Below are positions 39,480-43,904 of a stretch of 64,000 nt of DNA, piece by piece. Under the pieces are notes generated by a model. It saw only the letters and a program-made list of their open reading frames with translations, was not told the origin of the DNA and ran no database searches. The translations under genes were made by a program, and so were the position numbers. Position 1 is the first letter of the stretch, and every line of letters starts with the position of its first letter. Source of the stretch: Shinella curvata (GTDB lineage Bacteria > Pseudomonadota > Alphaproteobacteria > Rhizobiales > Rhizobiaceae); assembly GCF_022899935.1 (NCBI RefSeq), contig NZ_JALJCJ010000002.1, forward strand, positions 434,001 to 498,000, read 5' to 3'.

Positions 39480-40064
39480 TCAGCCGCCAGCCTTGCGGTG
39501 CTCGTTGCCATACATGTCGAGATAGTCGAACAGTTCCGGCGAGCCGAGCCCGATGGCGTCGAGGATTTCCCGTGCAAAGGAGACCGGCGCGGCGCCCGAC
39601 GCGGTGATGACGCCGCCGCCGCGCACGGCCTGCGGCTGGTCGCGGTACAGGGCGGCACCCCGATAGTCCGGCACGAGGTCGCGCAACTCGCTGGGGTGGT
39701 TGCCGGTATGCGCGCGGGTATCCAGCAGGCCCATGCGTCCGAGCGCCAGCGTGGCGTCGCAGATGCCGGCGACCGGCTTGCCCGCCGCGACGAAGCGTGC
39801 GACCGCAGCCGAGAGATCGGGCACGTCGTCGCTCTGCCAGATGGTGCCGCCGCACAGGACCAGCACGTCGAAATCGGCGGGCTGGGCATCCTCCGCTGCC
39901 CCCGACGACTTGATGGAGACGCCGCCGAGTGACGTTACGTCCCGGCCGCCGGGTGTCAGGGCAGCGGTCCGGGCTGCGCATACATGGCGCGCGCTCGCCA
40001 TCAGCAGGCCGCATTCCCAGTCCGCGTAGCCCTCGGTGAGTACGATCGCCAGTCGCTTCGTCAT
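39480..40064 (-). CDS. DJ-1/PfpI family protein
   Basis: The 194-residue protein has the class I glutamine amidotransferase-like fold: N-terminal MTKRLAIVLTEGYADWECGLL, central DVLVLCGGTIWQ, and the nucleophile-elbow segment PVAGICDATLALG with Cys as the candidate reactive residue. Relatives are stress proteases, glyoxalases or deglycases, and the role is not settled by sequence. It lies directly downstream of the GNAT gene and so behind the predicted attenuator. Confidence 0.85.
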   Translation of the reverse strand: MTKRLAIVLTEGYADWECGLLMASARHVCAARTAALTPGGRDVTSLGGVSIKSSGAAEDAQPADFDVLVLCGGTIWQSDDVPDLSAAVARFVAAGKPVAGICDATLALGRMGLLDTRAHTGNHPSELRDLVPDYRGAALYRDQPQAVRGGGVITASGAAPVSFAREILDAIGLGSPELFDYLDMYGNEHRKAGG

Positions 40065-40087: not shown

Positions 40088-40588
40088 TCAGCCCAAGGCC
40101 TGTACGTAGCGCATGCCCGTGACAGGGCCGGCGCGGAAATTCATCTGCTCGTAGAAACGGTGCGCGCCGAAATTGCCGGTGGCGGCGCTGACGGAGAGAT
40201 AGCCGCAGCCGGCGATGCGGGCATGCTCGCGGGCGCGCGAAACGAGGTGGCGGCCGATGCCATGGCCGCGATGATCCTTGCGCACGAAGATCTGGTGCAG
40301 TTCCATGCCGCGCATGCCCTCGGCGGCGCGGTACATCGGCACGAGCAGCGCGTAGCCGATCAGCCGGCCGCCCGCTTCGGCGACAAGCGCGGTGATCCAA
40401 GGATTTGCGCCGAACAGGTCGCGGTCGAGGTCTACGGCGGAGATTTTCGCGGTGTCGCCGTGGCATTCGGCGTGCAGCGCGATCATGTCGAGGATCTGCT
40501 GCAGATCGCCCTGGCGCGCGGCGCGGATGGTCAGCATCGGCGGGCGTTCGAGGGCGGCTGGGTCCAGTTTGATGACGGTATTGGGCAT
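40088..40588 (-). CDS. GNAT-family N-acetyltransferase
   Basis: The 166-residue protein has the GNAT fold with acetyl-CoA loop RKDHRGHGIGRHLV and a C-terminal YLSVSAATGNFGAHRFYEQMNF, typical of small-molecule or aminoglycoside-like acetyltransferases. AAGGAG precedes the ATG at 40588. Upstream lies a short-ORF and terminator leader (40625-40765). A DJ-1/PfpI gene follows 23 bases later, so the two form one operon. The acceptor is unknown, but the leader suggests control by translation status, such as drug or amino-acid stress. Confidence 0.9.
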   Translation of the reverse strand: MPNTVIKLDPAALERPPMLTIRAARQGDLQQILDMIALHAECHGDTAKISAVDLDRDLFGANPWITALVAEAGGRLIGYALLVPMYRAAEGMRGMELHQIFVRKDHRGHGIGRHLVSRAREHARIAGCGYLSVSAATGNFGAHRFYEQMNFRAGPVTGMRYVQALG

Positions 40589-40636
40589 TTCGGGCTCCTT
40601 GGTTTTCGTGCCATCAGGTGCCCTTTAAAACAACAA

Positions 40637-40654
40637 AGCCGCCTGATGGCGGCT
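40637..40654 (-). terminator. Attenuator terminator hairpin upstream of the GNAT gene
   Basis: On the minus strand AGCCGCC, ATCA and GGCGGCT form a 7-bp stem (eight with a G-U), followed by the U-rich stretch TTTGTTGTTTTA. The GNAT start is about 50 bases further on. A copy of its 5' arm can instead pair with GCGGCT at 40672-40677, six bp, giving an antiterminator. Confidence 0.7.
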
Positions 40655-40679
40655 CGTTGACATGATCAAACAGCCGCTC

Positions 40680-40730
40680 CTATCGGAACAGCCAAAAATA
40701 CGTCGCGGCGATGTGCGTGCTCTTGATCAT
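40680..40730 (-). CDS. Predicted leader peptide of the GNAT attenuator
   Basis: A 16-codon ORF, MIKSTHIAATYFWLFR then TAG, precedes the terminator hairpin. The run Tyr-Phe-Trp-Leu-Phe lies near its end, the expected stalling zone. A TTGACA/GAATAT promoter places the transcript start at about the A of its ATG, so it would be leaderless, as is the rhizobial trp leader. GCCGC inside the ORF can pair with GCGGC after its stop. Translation and start site are unproven. Confidence 0.65.
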   Translation of the reverse strand: MIKSTHIAATYFWLFR

Positions 40731-40737
40731 GGTCGCG

Positions 40738-40765
40738 ATATTCTCCGTTTCGCGGCCGTTGTCAA
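40738..40765 (-). promoter_or_regulatory. Promoter of the GNAT leader
   Basis: On the minus strand a perfect TTGACA (40765-40760), a 16-base spacer and GAATAT (40743-40738) are seen. The hexamer ends seven bases before the ATG of the leader ORF, predicting a transcript that begins on that ATG. Confidence 0.6.
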
Positions 40766-40800
40766 TCGGCTTTTTTCACGCGCCCGGAACACGGGGAAAT

Positions 40801-40829
40801 GAAGCGGAGGCTGGTCAGGCCTCCGCTTC
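40801..40829 (-). terminator. Hairpin over the stop codon of the conserved hypothetical gene
   Basis: GAAGCGGAGGC and GCCTCCGCTTC form a perfect 11-bp stem with a seven-base loop that includes the stop codon at 40815-40817. No T tract follows, so it may be a transcript end or an RNA-stabilising structure. Confidence 0.5.
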
Positions 40830-41267
40830 CTCCGTGCCGGCGGTGGCTTGCCCGTCCATGGCGCCGGCGTGTCGGGTTTCGTCGATGCCGAGTTGTTCCT
40901 TGATGGCGCGGCGGATGTCTTCCTCGATCGCCTCGCGCTGCTCGTCCGGCAGGGCGGCGAGGCTCGCCTCGTCGAGACCCATACGGTCGAGGATTTCCTT
41001 CCGCAGGCGCTCGGCGGGCGTCATCTTGGAAAGCTCCATGAATTCGGCGATCAGGCTGTCGCTTTCGGCCTGCGCCTTCTCGACCTTGGCATTGGTGAGC
41101 CACAGCGCATTAGCAAGGCCGGATGGCATCGTGCCTGCCGCACTGACGGTCGGGATATTCTTCCGGGCAGACGATTGTCCATCCGTGCCCGCATAGGCGC
41201 TCTCGTCGCTGGTCGTGCGCTGCCGGGTGGTCGCATAGGCCGAAATGAGGCTGCCGTCGATCTTCAT
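40815..41267 (-). CDS. Conserved hypothetical protein
   Basis: The 150-residue protein has a Ser/Thr-rich N-terminus (MKIDGSLISAYATTRQRTTS), then helical charged segments such as AEFMELSKMTPAERLRKEILDRMG and EEQREAIEEDIRR-like repeats, ending in an acidic Gly/Thr/Glu tail. No signal peptide, membrane segment or catalytic motif is seen. It might be a structural or cytosolic adaptor. No function is recognised. Confidence 0.75.
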   Translation of the reverse strand: MKIDGSLISAYATTRQRTTSDESAYAGTDGQSSARKNIPTVSAAGTMPSGLANALWLTNAKVEKAQAESDSLIAEFMELSKMTPAERLRKEILDRMGLDEASLAALPDEQREAIEEDIRRAIKEQLGIDETRHAGAMDGQATAGTEEAEA

Positions 41268-41415: not shown

Positions 41416-43749
41416 CTAAGGCAGCGTGTAGGCGATGACGTAGTCGCCCGGCTTGGTGCCGACCGAACCATGGCCGCCGGCAACGATCAGCACATATTGC
41501 TTGTCGCCGACCGTATAGGTCATGGGCGTCGCCTGTCCGCCGGCAGGAAGGCGGCCTTCCCAGAGTTGCCGTCCGGTGGTGACGTCATAGGCGCGGATAT
41601 AGTCATCGACCGCAGCACCGAGGAAGGCGACGCCGCCCTTGGTGATGATCGGGCCGCCGATGCCGGGCACGCCGAGCTTGAAGGCAAGCGGCAGCGGCGT
41701 CATGTCCCGGACCGTGCCGTTCTTGTGCTTGTAGGCGATGTGACCCGTTGCAAGGTCCGCACCCGCGACATAGCCCCATGGCGGCGCCTGGCAGGGGATG
41801 CCGAGCGGACCGAGGAACGGTCCCATGAAGACGCCGTAGGGTGCGCCGTCATTGCGGTTGAGGCCCTGTTCGGAGCCCTTCTCGTCCTGCCCCTTCGCCG
41901 GGATCTGATCGCGCGGCACGAGCCGCGAGGTGAAGGCGAGATAGGTCGGCATGCCGAACATGATCTGCCGTTCGGGATCGACCGCAACCGAGCCCCAGTT
42001 GAACGTGCCGAAATTGCCGGGATAGACGATGGTGCCTTCCAGCGAGGGCGGCGTGTAGCGGCCCTCGTATTTCATCGACAGGAAGTCGATGCGGCACTTG
42101 AGCTGGTCGAACATGGTGACGCCCCACATGTTCTTTTCCGTCAGCGGATCGGGCATGAAGGTGAGGCCCGAGACCGGCTGGGTCGGCGCGGTGAAGTCTT
42201 CTGGGATCGCGCCCGTCGGCGCCGGCACTTCCTTGACCTCGATGATCGGCTCGCCGGTGCGCCGGTCGAGCACATAGATGTCGCCCTGCTTGGTCGGGCC
42301 GACGAGGGCGGGGATGGTGGCGCCATCCTTGGTGATGTCGATCAGGACAGGCTGGGCCGGCACGTCCATGTCCCAGAGGTCATGGTGGACCGTCTGGCGC
42401 ACCCAGCGCATGGCGCCGGTCTTGATATCGAGTGCGACGATGGAGGACGAGTATTTTTCGACATGCTCGCTGCGGCCCATGCCGAGCTGGTCCGGCACCT
42501 GGTTGCCGAGGGGCACATAGACGAGGCCAAGCGCATCGTCATAGCTGAATACCGACCAGGAATTCGGCGAGTTGACCGTGTAGACCTGGCCCTCCGGCAG
42601 CGGCGTGGTGGTATCCGGATTGCCGGAATCCCAGTTCCAGATCAGCGCACCGGAATTCACGTCGAAGGCGCGGATGACACCGGACTGCTCCTGCGTCGAA
42701 TAGTTGTCGTTGACCGCGCCGCCGATGATGATCTTGCCATCGGTGATGGCCGGCGGCGATGTCGAATAATAGTAGCCGGCCGGATTGTACGGCATGCCCT
42801 TTTCGAGGTGCAGCACGCCGTTTTCGGCGAAGCTCGTGCAGACATCGCCTGTTTCGGCGTCGAGCGCGATCAGGCGGGCATCCGACGTCGGCAGATAGAC
42901 GCGGGCCGCGCAGGTCGTGCCGGCGGTGGCCGCCGGATCGGCATAGTAGGTGACGCCGCGGCAGGTCTGGTGCTGGCGATCCGGGTTCATGCCGGAATTG
43001 GAATCGTATTTCCACTTCTCCTTGCCGGTGGCGGCGTCGAGCGCGATTGCCCAGTTGTGCGGCGTGCACATGTAGAGCGTGTCACCCACCTTGAGCGGCG
43101 TCACCTGGTAGGTGGTCTCGCCGACGTCGTCGGGTTTCTTCACGTCGCCGGTCTGGTATTGCCAGGCGACAGCCAGTTTCGCGACGTTGTCGGTATTGAT
43201 CTGGTCGAGCGGCGAATAGCGCTGGCCGTACGGGGTGCGGCCATACTGGTGCCATTCGCCTGACGGCACGTTGCCGCCCAGCGCCGGTGTCGCATTCACG
43301 ATATCGGTCGGCAGCGCGCCGGAGAGATCGTGCTGATCCTGCGTCATCGAATAGCCGGCGACGGCAATCGCGACGATCACCGCAACGCCGAGCGGCAGCG
43401 CGGAGGCGGGGTAGGGCGTGCCGGTCGGGCTGGCGAAGCCGAGCGGCCGGCGGATGCCCGGCAGCATCAGCCACAGGCCGAGAAGCACGATGACGCCGCC
43501 GCGCGGGCCGAGCTGCCACCAGTCGAAGCCGACTTCCCAGACCGCCCAGCCGAGCGAACCGAGGACGATGAGGGCATAGAGCCAAAGTGCGGCGCTGGAG
43601 CGGCGGAAGAGCAGGAAGGCCGTGGCGAGAAAGGCAAGGCCTGTGACGAGATAATAGGGACTGCCGCCGAGCGACAGCAGCCATCCGCCCCCGCCCGTCA
43701 GCACCAGACCGATGAGGGCGACGAGCGTGGCAGTGAGAGAAAGCAGCAT
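41416..43749 (-). CDS. gcd: PQQ-dependent membrane-bound glucose dehydrogenase
   Basis: The 777-residue protein has four to five N-terminal transmembrane helices and a periplasmic eight-bladed PQQ propeller, with blade signatures such as RVYLPTSDARLIALDAETGDVC and WDMDVPAQPVLID. It oxidises glucose to gluconolactone on the outer face of the inner membrane and passes electrons to ubiquinone. Length is close to the usual 796 of the E. coli enzyme. The ATG at 43749 follows GGAGA. PQQ biosynthesis genes are not in the window. Confidence 0.95.
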   Translation of the reverse strand: MLLSLTATLVALIGLVLTGGGGWLLSLGGSPYYLVTGLAFLATAFLLFRRSSAALWLYALIVLGSLGWAVWEVGFDWWQLGPRGGVIVLLGLWLMLPGIRRPLGFASPTGTPYPASALPLGVAVIVAIAVAGYSMTQDQHDLSGALPTDIVNATPALGGNVPSGEWHQYGRTPYGQRYSPLDQINTDNVAKLAVAWQYQTGDVKKPDDVGETTYQVTPLKVGDTLYMCTPHNWAIALDAATGKEKWKYDSNSGMNPDRQHQTCRGVTYYADPAATAGTTCAARVYLPTSDARLIALDAETGDVCTSFAENGVLHLEKGMPYNPAGYYYSTSPPAITDGKIIIGGAVNDNYSTQEQSGVIRAFDVNSGALIWNWDSGNPDTTTPLPEGQVYTVNSPNSWSVFSYDDALGLVYVPLGNQVPDQLGMGRSEHVEKYSSSIVALDIKTGAMRWVRQTVHHDLWDMDVPAQPVLIDITKDGATIPALVGPTKQGDIYVLDRRTGEPIIEVKEVPAPTGAIPEDFTAPTQPVSGLTFMPDPLTEKNMWGVTMFDQLKCRIDFLSMKYEGRYTPPSLEGTIVYPGNFGTFNWGSVAVDPERQIMFGMPTYLAFTSRLVPRDQIPAKGQDEKGSEQGLNRNDGAPYGVFMGPFLGPLGIPCQAPPWGYVAGADLATGHIAYKHKNGTVRDMTPLPLAFKLGVPGIGGPIITKGGVAFLGAAVDDYIRAYDVTTGRQLWEGRLPAGGQATPMTYTVGDKQYVLIVAGGHGSVGTKPGDYVIAYTLP

Positions 43750-43904
43750 GATAGTCTCCGTGGCAATGCCGGCGGGGAGGGGCCGACATGACGTCCGGCT
43801 CAAGGGAGGACGCAGGAGAAATTAGGGCAGAACCGTGACGCTTCAATGCGCGCGACCAGGCGATTTTGCATGGCTGCGATGAGCTGACTGCGTCTCAGTG
43901 CAGG

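Follow-up and report, generated by a model that had tools for sequence, protein, structure and literature searches.

A predicted leaderless attenuator with Tyr-Phe-Trp codons before an acetyltransferase gene of Rhizobiaceae

In the window analysed here, a stretch of 64,000 nucleotides from Shinella curvata, the gene of a GNAT acetyltransferase is preceded on the minus strand by a short leader that is very probably a ribosome-dependent transcription attenuator, carried on a leaderless transcript and reporting a shortage of charged aromatic tRNAs. The parts of this leader (Table 1) are conserved, its helices covary, and computed folding gives distinct states according to the position of the ribosome. 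The start of transcription, the stalling, the termination and the physiological cue would be connected in the following way. Transcription would begin with the leader AUG, and a ribosome would follow the polymerase; under a shortage of Tyr-, Phe- or Trp-tRNA, this ribosome would halt at UAU-UUU-UGG and cover segment 1; segment 2 could then pair with segment 3, the terminator would be blocked, and the GNAT gene, with the PfpI gene where present, would be transcribed. When charged tRNAs are plentiful, the ribosome would reach the stop and cover segment 2, and the 3:4 terminator would form; without translation, the closing helix P1 and the 1:2 hairpin would sequester segment 2, and the terminator would form as well. 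An acetyltransferase of many Rhizobiaceae, and of Sinorhizobium meliloti, would thereby be tied to aromatic amino-acid supply, offering a direct handle on its function.

Promoter, leader ORF and RNA segments

Table 1. Features of the leader and its target genes (positions of the window)
Feature	Position	Strand	Basis
-35 element TTGACA	40760..40765	minus	sequence; kept as TTGA[CT] in GNAT loci
-10-like GAATAT, 7 nt 5' of leader ATG	40738..40743	minus	sequence
P1 closing helix, 5' arm AUGAUCAAG, contains start codon	40722..40730	minus	fold and compensatory changes
Leader ORF MIKSTHIAATYFWLFR, stop UAG	40680..40730	minus	ORF list; conserved in 84 loci
UAU-UUU-UGG codons (Tyr-Phe-Trp)	40700-40692	minus	within leader ORF
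Segment 1, GGCUGUUCC, partner of segment 2	40685..40693	minus	fold and pair counts
Segment 2, GGAGCGGCUG, partner of segment 1 or segment 3 (antiterminator)	40671..40680	minus	covariation and state folding
P1 closing helix, 3' arm UUUGAUCAU	40662..40670	minus	fold and pair counts
Segment 3, GAGCCGCC	40648..40655	minus	terminator scan and pair counts
Segment 4, GGCGGCU, terminator right arm	40637..40643	minus	terminator scan and pair counts
U-rich run UUGUUGUUUU	40627..40636	minus	sequence and terminator scan
Segment 5, CCUGAUGGC, complementary to terminator left arm and loop (GCCAUCAGG)	40610..40618	minus	complementarity, covariation
Shine-Dalgarno GGAG of GNAT	40595..40598	minus	sequence
GNAT acetyltransferase, 166 aa	40088..40588	minus	Pfam PF00583, E 2.8e-18
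DJ-1/PfpI-like protein, 194 aa, second gene of operon	39480..40064	minus	TIGR01382

The leader was followed through the orthologs of the GNAT gene; of 394 Rhizobiaceae genomes sampled, 101 carry it (E <= 1e-25), spread over 23 of 109 genera. The loci compared number 84, namely 71 from these 101 genomes (the returned loci plus 40 picked to spread over the genera, all 23 positive genera being covered and 30 genomes staying outside) and 13 more from the same genus; the GNAT search gave 14 named loci, 13 of which are Shinella, 83-99% identical. Outside the 84 loci, a Sinorhizobium meliloti Ak57 record labelled pSymB carries the leader MIKNAPISSVYFWLFR ahead of the GNAT gene, and Sinorhizobium sp. 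K101 has a GNAT leader resembling it; three of six plasmid records were read.

The original prediction of a TTGACA/GAATAT promoter with its -10 box seven bases from an ATG is borne out on the minus strand, where 29 nt separate TTGACA from the leader ATG, and the leaderless geometry that it proposed extends far beyond the genus, as TTGA[CT] stands 28-33 nt 5' of the ATG in 84/84 GNAT loci. In most of them, 79 of the 84, the distance is 29 nt (56 loci) or 30 nt (23 loci, two of which have a second TTGA[CT] match close to the ATG); it is 28 nt in three, 31 in one and 33 in one. This constant spacing predicts that transcription begins with the leader AUG or right beside it, the first nucleotide of the leaderless transcript being the A of the ATG or its neighbour. 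The -10 box is weak: GAATAT matches TATAAT at three of six positions, and consensus promoter scans of the window missed the leader promoter; in an alignment, GAATATC is present in 21 same-genus loci and not in the 22nd locus (L022). That same locus has, at 102-185, a long, near-perfect inverted repeat, perhaps a repeated palindromic element, and on the plus strand of the window a hairpin followed by Ts, resembling a terminator (40754-40771), overlaps the leader promoter.

The ORF, predicted as 16 codons with an aromatic run before the stop, has its ATG at 40730 and a stop ending at 40680, and an ATG-started ORF is kept in all 84 loci, with 16 codons in 68 and 17 in 16. Tyr and Phe are clustered in every one of these ORFs and Trp in 83, in the order YFW in 71 loci, WYF in 11, YFT in one and WFYY in one, while the residues ahead of the cluster vary. 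In seven genes of the window, the leaders' usual Tyr codon, UAU, is commoner than its alternative (59 to 38) and the Phe codon UUU is rare (14 to 80), so that UUU is the only rare codon of the cluster, which counts against the model.

The 107-nt leader folds with a minimum free energy of -42.9 kcal/mol, compared with -28.65 +/- 3.11 for its shuffles (z -4.58; 0/200 as good). A terminator is predicted at 40655-40636 on the minus strand, with eight pairs, six of them G-C, followed by the U-rich run; in the 4-kb scan, terminator-like sites number three, as against a shuffle mean of 3.4, that is, no excess. Segments 2, 3 and 4 and the U-rich run lie as first proposed, GGAGCGGCUG being directly 3' of the leader stop, and almost every aligned GNAT leader, judged by eye, has a U-rich run, a weak one in the case of L048, L058 and L081. 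Segment 1, on the other hand, had been misplaced: the GCCGC first proposed (nt 22-26) is paired with segment 2 in 198/340 cells (58%) over 68 leaders, as against 84% of cells for the conserved GGCUGUUCC (nt 38-46), which overlaps the Trp-Leu-Phe codons. The pairing AUGAUC/GAUCAU of the leader start with the sequence after the ORF is present, with compensatory changes; it is kept despite sequence change in L086 (AUGACA with UGUCAU), also in L087, and in Paracoccus as GUGCAUG with CAUGCAC.

Covariation and folding according to ribosome position

In 68 leaders, P1, 1:2 and 3:4 taken together lie above 500/500 shuffles on all five measures, with seven pairs changed on both sides compared with 2.8 in shuffles (0/500), although many loci are closely related and such shuffle tests overstate their independence. 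The antiterminator 2:3 scores 0.086 as against 0.054 when shuffled (0/500; the same 68 leaders), and exceeds the shuffles on three of the five measures, the other two being non-discriminating (500 of 500 shuffles); five terminator pairs are invariant in the 68-leader pair counts.

The RNA that a ribosome leaves free was folded for 82 distinct leaders, on the assumption that the ribosome covers 12 nt counted from its A site. Whichever of the three cluster codons occupies the A site, segment 3 finds an upstream partner in 82/82 leaders as long as segment 4 has not been made (mean -15 to -17 kcal/mol). With the ribosome on the stop, such pairing is seen in 1/82 (mean -2.0), the terminator forming in 82/82; with the ribosome absent, the terminator also folds in 82/82. 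In folding, antiterminator and terminator thus exclude each other, the position of the ribosome deciding between them while segment 4 does not yet exist, and the attenuator logic first read from the window holds in its conserved parts, in its covariation and in this computed contrast. Once segment 4 has been added and equilibrium is reached, a ribosome on the aromatic codons still leaves the terminator as the lowest-energy form in 49-57 of the 82 leaders, so that the switch must be kinetic and 2:3 must form first, during transcription.

Searches with an RNA model built from the 68 GNAT leaders (R1) give a concordant picture, though one not fully independent, as the leaders are the same: among 297 Rhizobiaceae genomes, 68 match at E <= 5e-9, all of them GNAT-positive when the rows were compared by eye. 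Eighteen weak R1 rows followed (E 4e-5 to 9e-4), of which the six fetched (L141, L143-L147) look like gene ends or terminators, and a weak match in the genome's own sequence (L142) looks like one or the other. At E <= 0.01, R1 matched 81/297 genomes; besides L128 and L142, 11 of the loci were inspected (L112-L122), of which six are leaders outside Rhizobiaceae (L112-L115, L117, L118) and five are not, L116 and L119 resembling by eye the ends of a gene and of a tRNA, with a terminator. In two more model searches, 17/297 genomes gave five Rhizobiaceae GNAT leaders (by place), five tyrS, three tyrA and four others (L116, L119, L124 and L164), and 12/337 genomes gave the window's own leader, eight leaders and three sites resembling plain terminators (L159, L161, L162).

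Related leaders and known attenuators

The same scaffold, picked up by R1 and by a broader model, R2, stands with Tyr-rich codons before tyrosyl-tRNA synthetase genes (L112, L113, L117, L138, L139, L152, L163, and L128, where the gene was read from its translation), and Tyr-Tyr leaders stand before prephenate dehydrogenase, tyrA (L114, L115, L118, L157). A Trp-Trp leader (L156) precedes a class I W/Y synthetase, a Pfam assignment that does not separate TrpRS from TyrRS, and this enzyme is probably TrpRS. The regulatory codons thus match the regulated gene for tyrS, tyrA and the probable trpS relatives; wherever the downstream gene tells its amino acid, the leader codons follow it, and the YFW leader would accordingly sense aromatic aminoacyl-tRNA supply. 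This match, together with the aromatic codons kept in the 84 loci, supports the proposal that these codons are the sensor, and is the strongest argument for it. Predicted attenuators akin to the rhizobial trp leader thus occur with Tyr codons as well as with mixed aromatic ones, before tyrS, tyrA and GNAT genes.

Other members are more scattered. WYF leaders precede GNAT genes in L154, L155 and L160, and in L153 (read from translation); three WYF-led GNATs of other orders match the window GNAT weakly (E 5e-4 to 5e-3). The GNAT of Paracoccus marcusii, 38% identical to that of the window, has a Tyr-Tyr leader in which the U-run is absent after the 3:4 hairpin; its close relatives are found in 2/318 genomes (the own genome and G843), so this branch is rare. 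TTGA[CT] lies 28-31 nt 5' of the ATG in 16 of 22 distant leaders; it is absent before the ATG in six tyrS-type leaders (L112, L113, L137-L140), three of which have a looser TTGCC-like element. L137-L140 appear as second leader copies with Tyr-Tyr codons in two Rhizobiaceae genera; the TyrRS gene is truncated after the Tyr-Tyr leader of L137, and no tyrS is seen after the YY leader of L140, so the leader can outlive its gene. Three further loci were observed in passing: an AYFT leader before a free-standing 92-aa S4-domain protein weakly like the TyrRS C-terminal domain (L158:1181-1456, minus strand); a shorter leader, MINALKIARY, with a single Tyr before a GNAT and the promoter spacing of 29 nt kept (L171); and, near position 1500 on the minus strand of L164, what may be a short ORF containing Ile codons (MDNRRAPALSIIRAIE), followed by a hairpin and a small protein, perhaps an attenuator.

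The attenuators of Escherichia coli pheA/pheST and trp stall at codons for the amino acid concerned; they differ from the present leader in that they are not leaderless, respond to one amino acid each, and act on biosynthesis or synthetase targets. T-box riboswitches, which control tyrS, sense uncharged tRNA, but by binding it directly, with no leader ORF; PMC2494555 and PMC3315439 concern such riboswitches of tyrS genes. In Streptomyces, trpS and leuS are predicted to have attenuators ahead of them (PMC1262725), again in front of aminoacyl-tRNA synthetases like the tyrS and probable trpS relatives described here, although in Actinobacteria and with no GNAT target in the text examined of that source.

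The nearest known system is the trp attenuator of S. meliloti (rnTrpL / RcsR1, RF02552, with its peptide peTrpL), which shares with the window leader the aromatic codons near the stop, followed by segments of the GCGGC / GCCGCC / GGCGGC type and a terminator, but differs in that the target of the window leader is an acetyltransferase and its codons are Tyr-Phe-Trp. At the gathering cut-off, no Rfam family was found in the window or in 14 relative loci; the window leader scores 14.2 bits with RF02552 (E 1.5; cut-off 60 bits), and isrK and RcsR1 were rejected as its Rfam identity, both being weak matches far below their cut-offs. In the parts of the sources consulted, rnTrpL starts with the ATG of trpL (PMC7298713), and RcsR1 and the trp attenuator RNA rnTrpL share the position from which they are transcribed (PMC7143759). 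The likeness to the rhizobial trp leader, first claimed for the transcript start, stands for the RNA segments of the genome's own trpL, which encodes MINIAGWWWVR (WWW before the stop) with segments like those of the window leader, and scores 22 bits with the broader model R2 (E 0.55). For the start it is less certain: TTGA[CT] was not found in the 45 nt 5' of the trpL ATG used (L148), and a second in-frame ATG lies 9 nt upstream, making the ORF three codons longer, so that where the own trpL begins is less evident than for the GNAT leader.

Among the literature matches listed, there is no description of a GNAT, tyrS or tyrA leader of this kind in alphaproteobacteria, and an earlier prediction is possible; the main text of an attenuator survey (PMC2965389) is without terms for such a leader, and the word "acetyltransferase" is absent from the main text of a published S. 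meliloti Ribo-seq study (PMC10117765).

Alternative readings, segment 5 and the target genes

Hardly credible is the chance occurrence of an ORF and a hairpin in a GC-rich intergenic region: GC-rich windows do form hairpins easily, and the terminator scan gave no excess over shuffles, but the presence of the leader in 84/84 loci, its fold z-score and its covariation go against chance, and the conservation by itself already refutes a chance ORF. A constitutive unit, in which a stable small RNA would act mainly in trans while GNAT read-through went unregulated, is very unlikely; rnTrpL of S. meliloti, a trp attenuator RNA, does act in trans according to portions of PMC7143759 and PMC7298713, but the conserved antiterminator and the match of codons to targets would serve no purpose in such a unit. 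Somewhat better placed, though still quite improbable, is a drug-inducible arrest-peptide leader, in which the peptide or a ribosome-targeting antibiotic would stall the ribosome and the GNAT would modify the drug. GNATs include antibiotic acetyltransferases, AAC(3)-XI and AAC(6')-Iy are among the best 1000 chains that Foldseek matches to the GNAT fold, and any stall on the cluster codons would permit the antiterminator. However, the variable order and make-up of the aromatic cluster, and the variable residues ahead of it, are more in keeping with the sensing of codons than with an invariant peptide that arrests in response to a drug, and the same scaffold, Tyr-rich or Trp-Trp, stands before tRNA synthetases and a Tyr biosynthesis gene.

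The remaining alternative, a translational attenuator, is unlikely as well. Here the last hairpins would hide the GNAT ribosome binding site, and stalling on the leader would free it; consistent with this, GGGC/GGCUCC can pair with the Shine-Dalgarno region (in the predicted fold of the minus strand, GGGC 40623-40620 with GCCC 40595-40592), segment 5 covaries with the terminator loop, and the Paracoccus leader is without a U-run. Nevertheless, the Shine-Dalgarno pairing is nearly equal whether the antiterminator or the terminator is enforced (means of 0.74 and 0.78), the difference being >0.2 in 6/73 leaders with a script-placed site, and the U-rich terminator is present in the window and in nearly all aligned GNAT leaders. 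With enforced folds so nearly identical, the freeing of the Shine-Dalgarno by segment 5 upon antitermination was also rejected as the main mechanism, and the transcriptional attenuator sensing aromatic aminoacyl-tRNAs is the reading preferred here.

To our knowledge, a fifth segment after the terminator is absent from the classical attenuation model, relative to which segment 5, a covarying RNA segment past the terminator, would be new. Its complementarity to the terminator left arm and loop beats that of shuffled tails of the same composition at p <= 0.05 in 60 of 78 distinct leaders, and at p <= 0.01 in 53; the mean run is 6.35, compared with 4.75 when tails are swapped between 17 loop classes (0/300 as high). 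Among distant leaders, 13/21 reach p < 0.05, the exceptions being the own trpL (0.136) and seven others, of which L118 is the weakest (0.744). Since segment 5 covaries with the terminator loop, it points to RNA pairing rather than to a protein site in the DNA, and since it lies downstream of the terminator, it is made too late to influence the first termination event; one possibility is that a released leader RNA may pair with the read-through mRNA. A wider proposal, which we regard as doubtful, would make of all these leaders a leaderless aromatic attenuator family, swapped among alphaproteobacterial tyrS, tyrA, trpS, trpE and GNAT genes by codon change. Its GNAT branch would be an alarm for any aromatic amino acid (Tyr, Phe and Trp together), switching on an acetyltransferase directed at a toxic aromatic analogue or a synthetase inhibitor, and the terminator loop of the released leader RNA would pair in trans with segment 5 beside the GNAT start, adding a second control.

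As to the target, originally given as an acetyltransferase together with a PfpI gene, the GNAT is constant, and PfpI is an optional partner, found on the same strand 8-169 nt past the GNAT match in 48/84 loci (of the 36 loci without it, L087 is too short in sequence to tell). The PfpI-like protein of the window matches TIGR01382 with E 3e-9 and 36.7 bits, below the curated cut-off of 139. Among Foldseek's top 1000 chains, the fold of the GNAT is closest to the SSAT/thialysine acetyltransferases (SSAT/SSAT2), and our guess would be that it acts on a small amine or amino-acid-like molecule. Upstream of the leader, also on the minus strand, the window has a 150-aa ORF without a Pfam match (40815-41267) and a PQQ-dependent dehydrogenase (Pfam PQQ; 41416-43803); a PQQ dehydrogenase likewise lies near the GNAT gene at the S. 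meliloti locus (L149), where it is annotated as belonging to the glucose/quinate/shikimate family.
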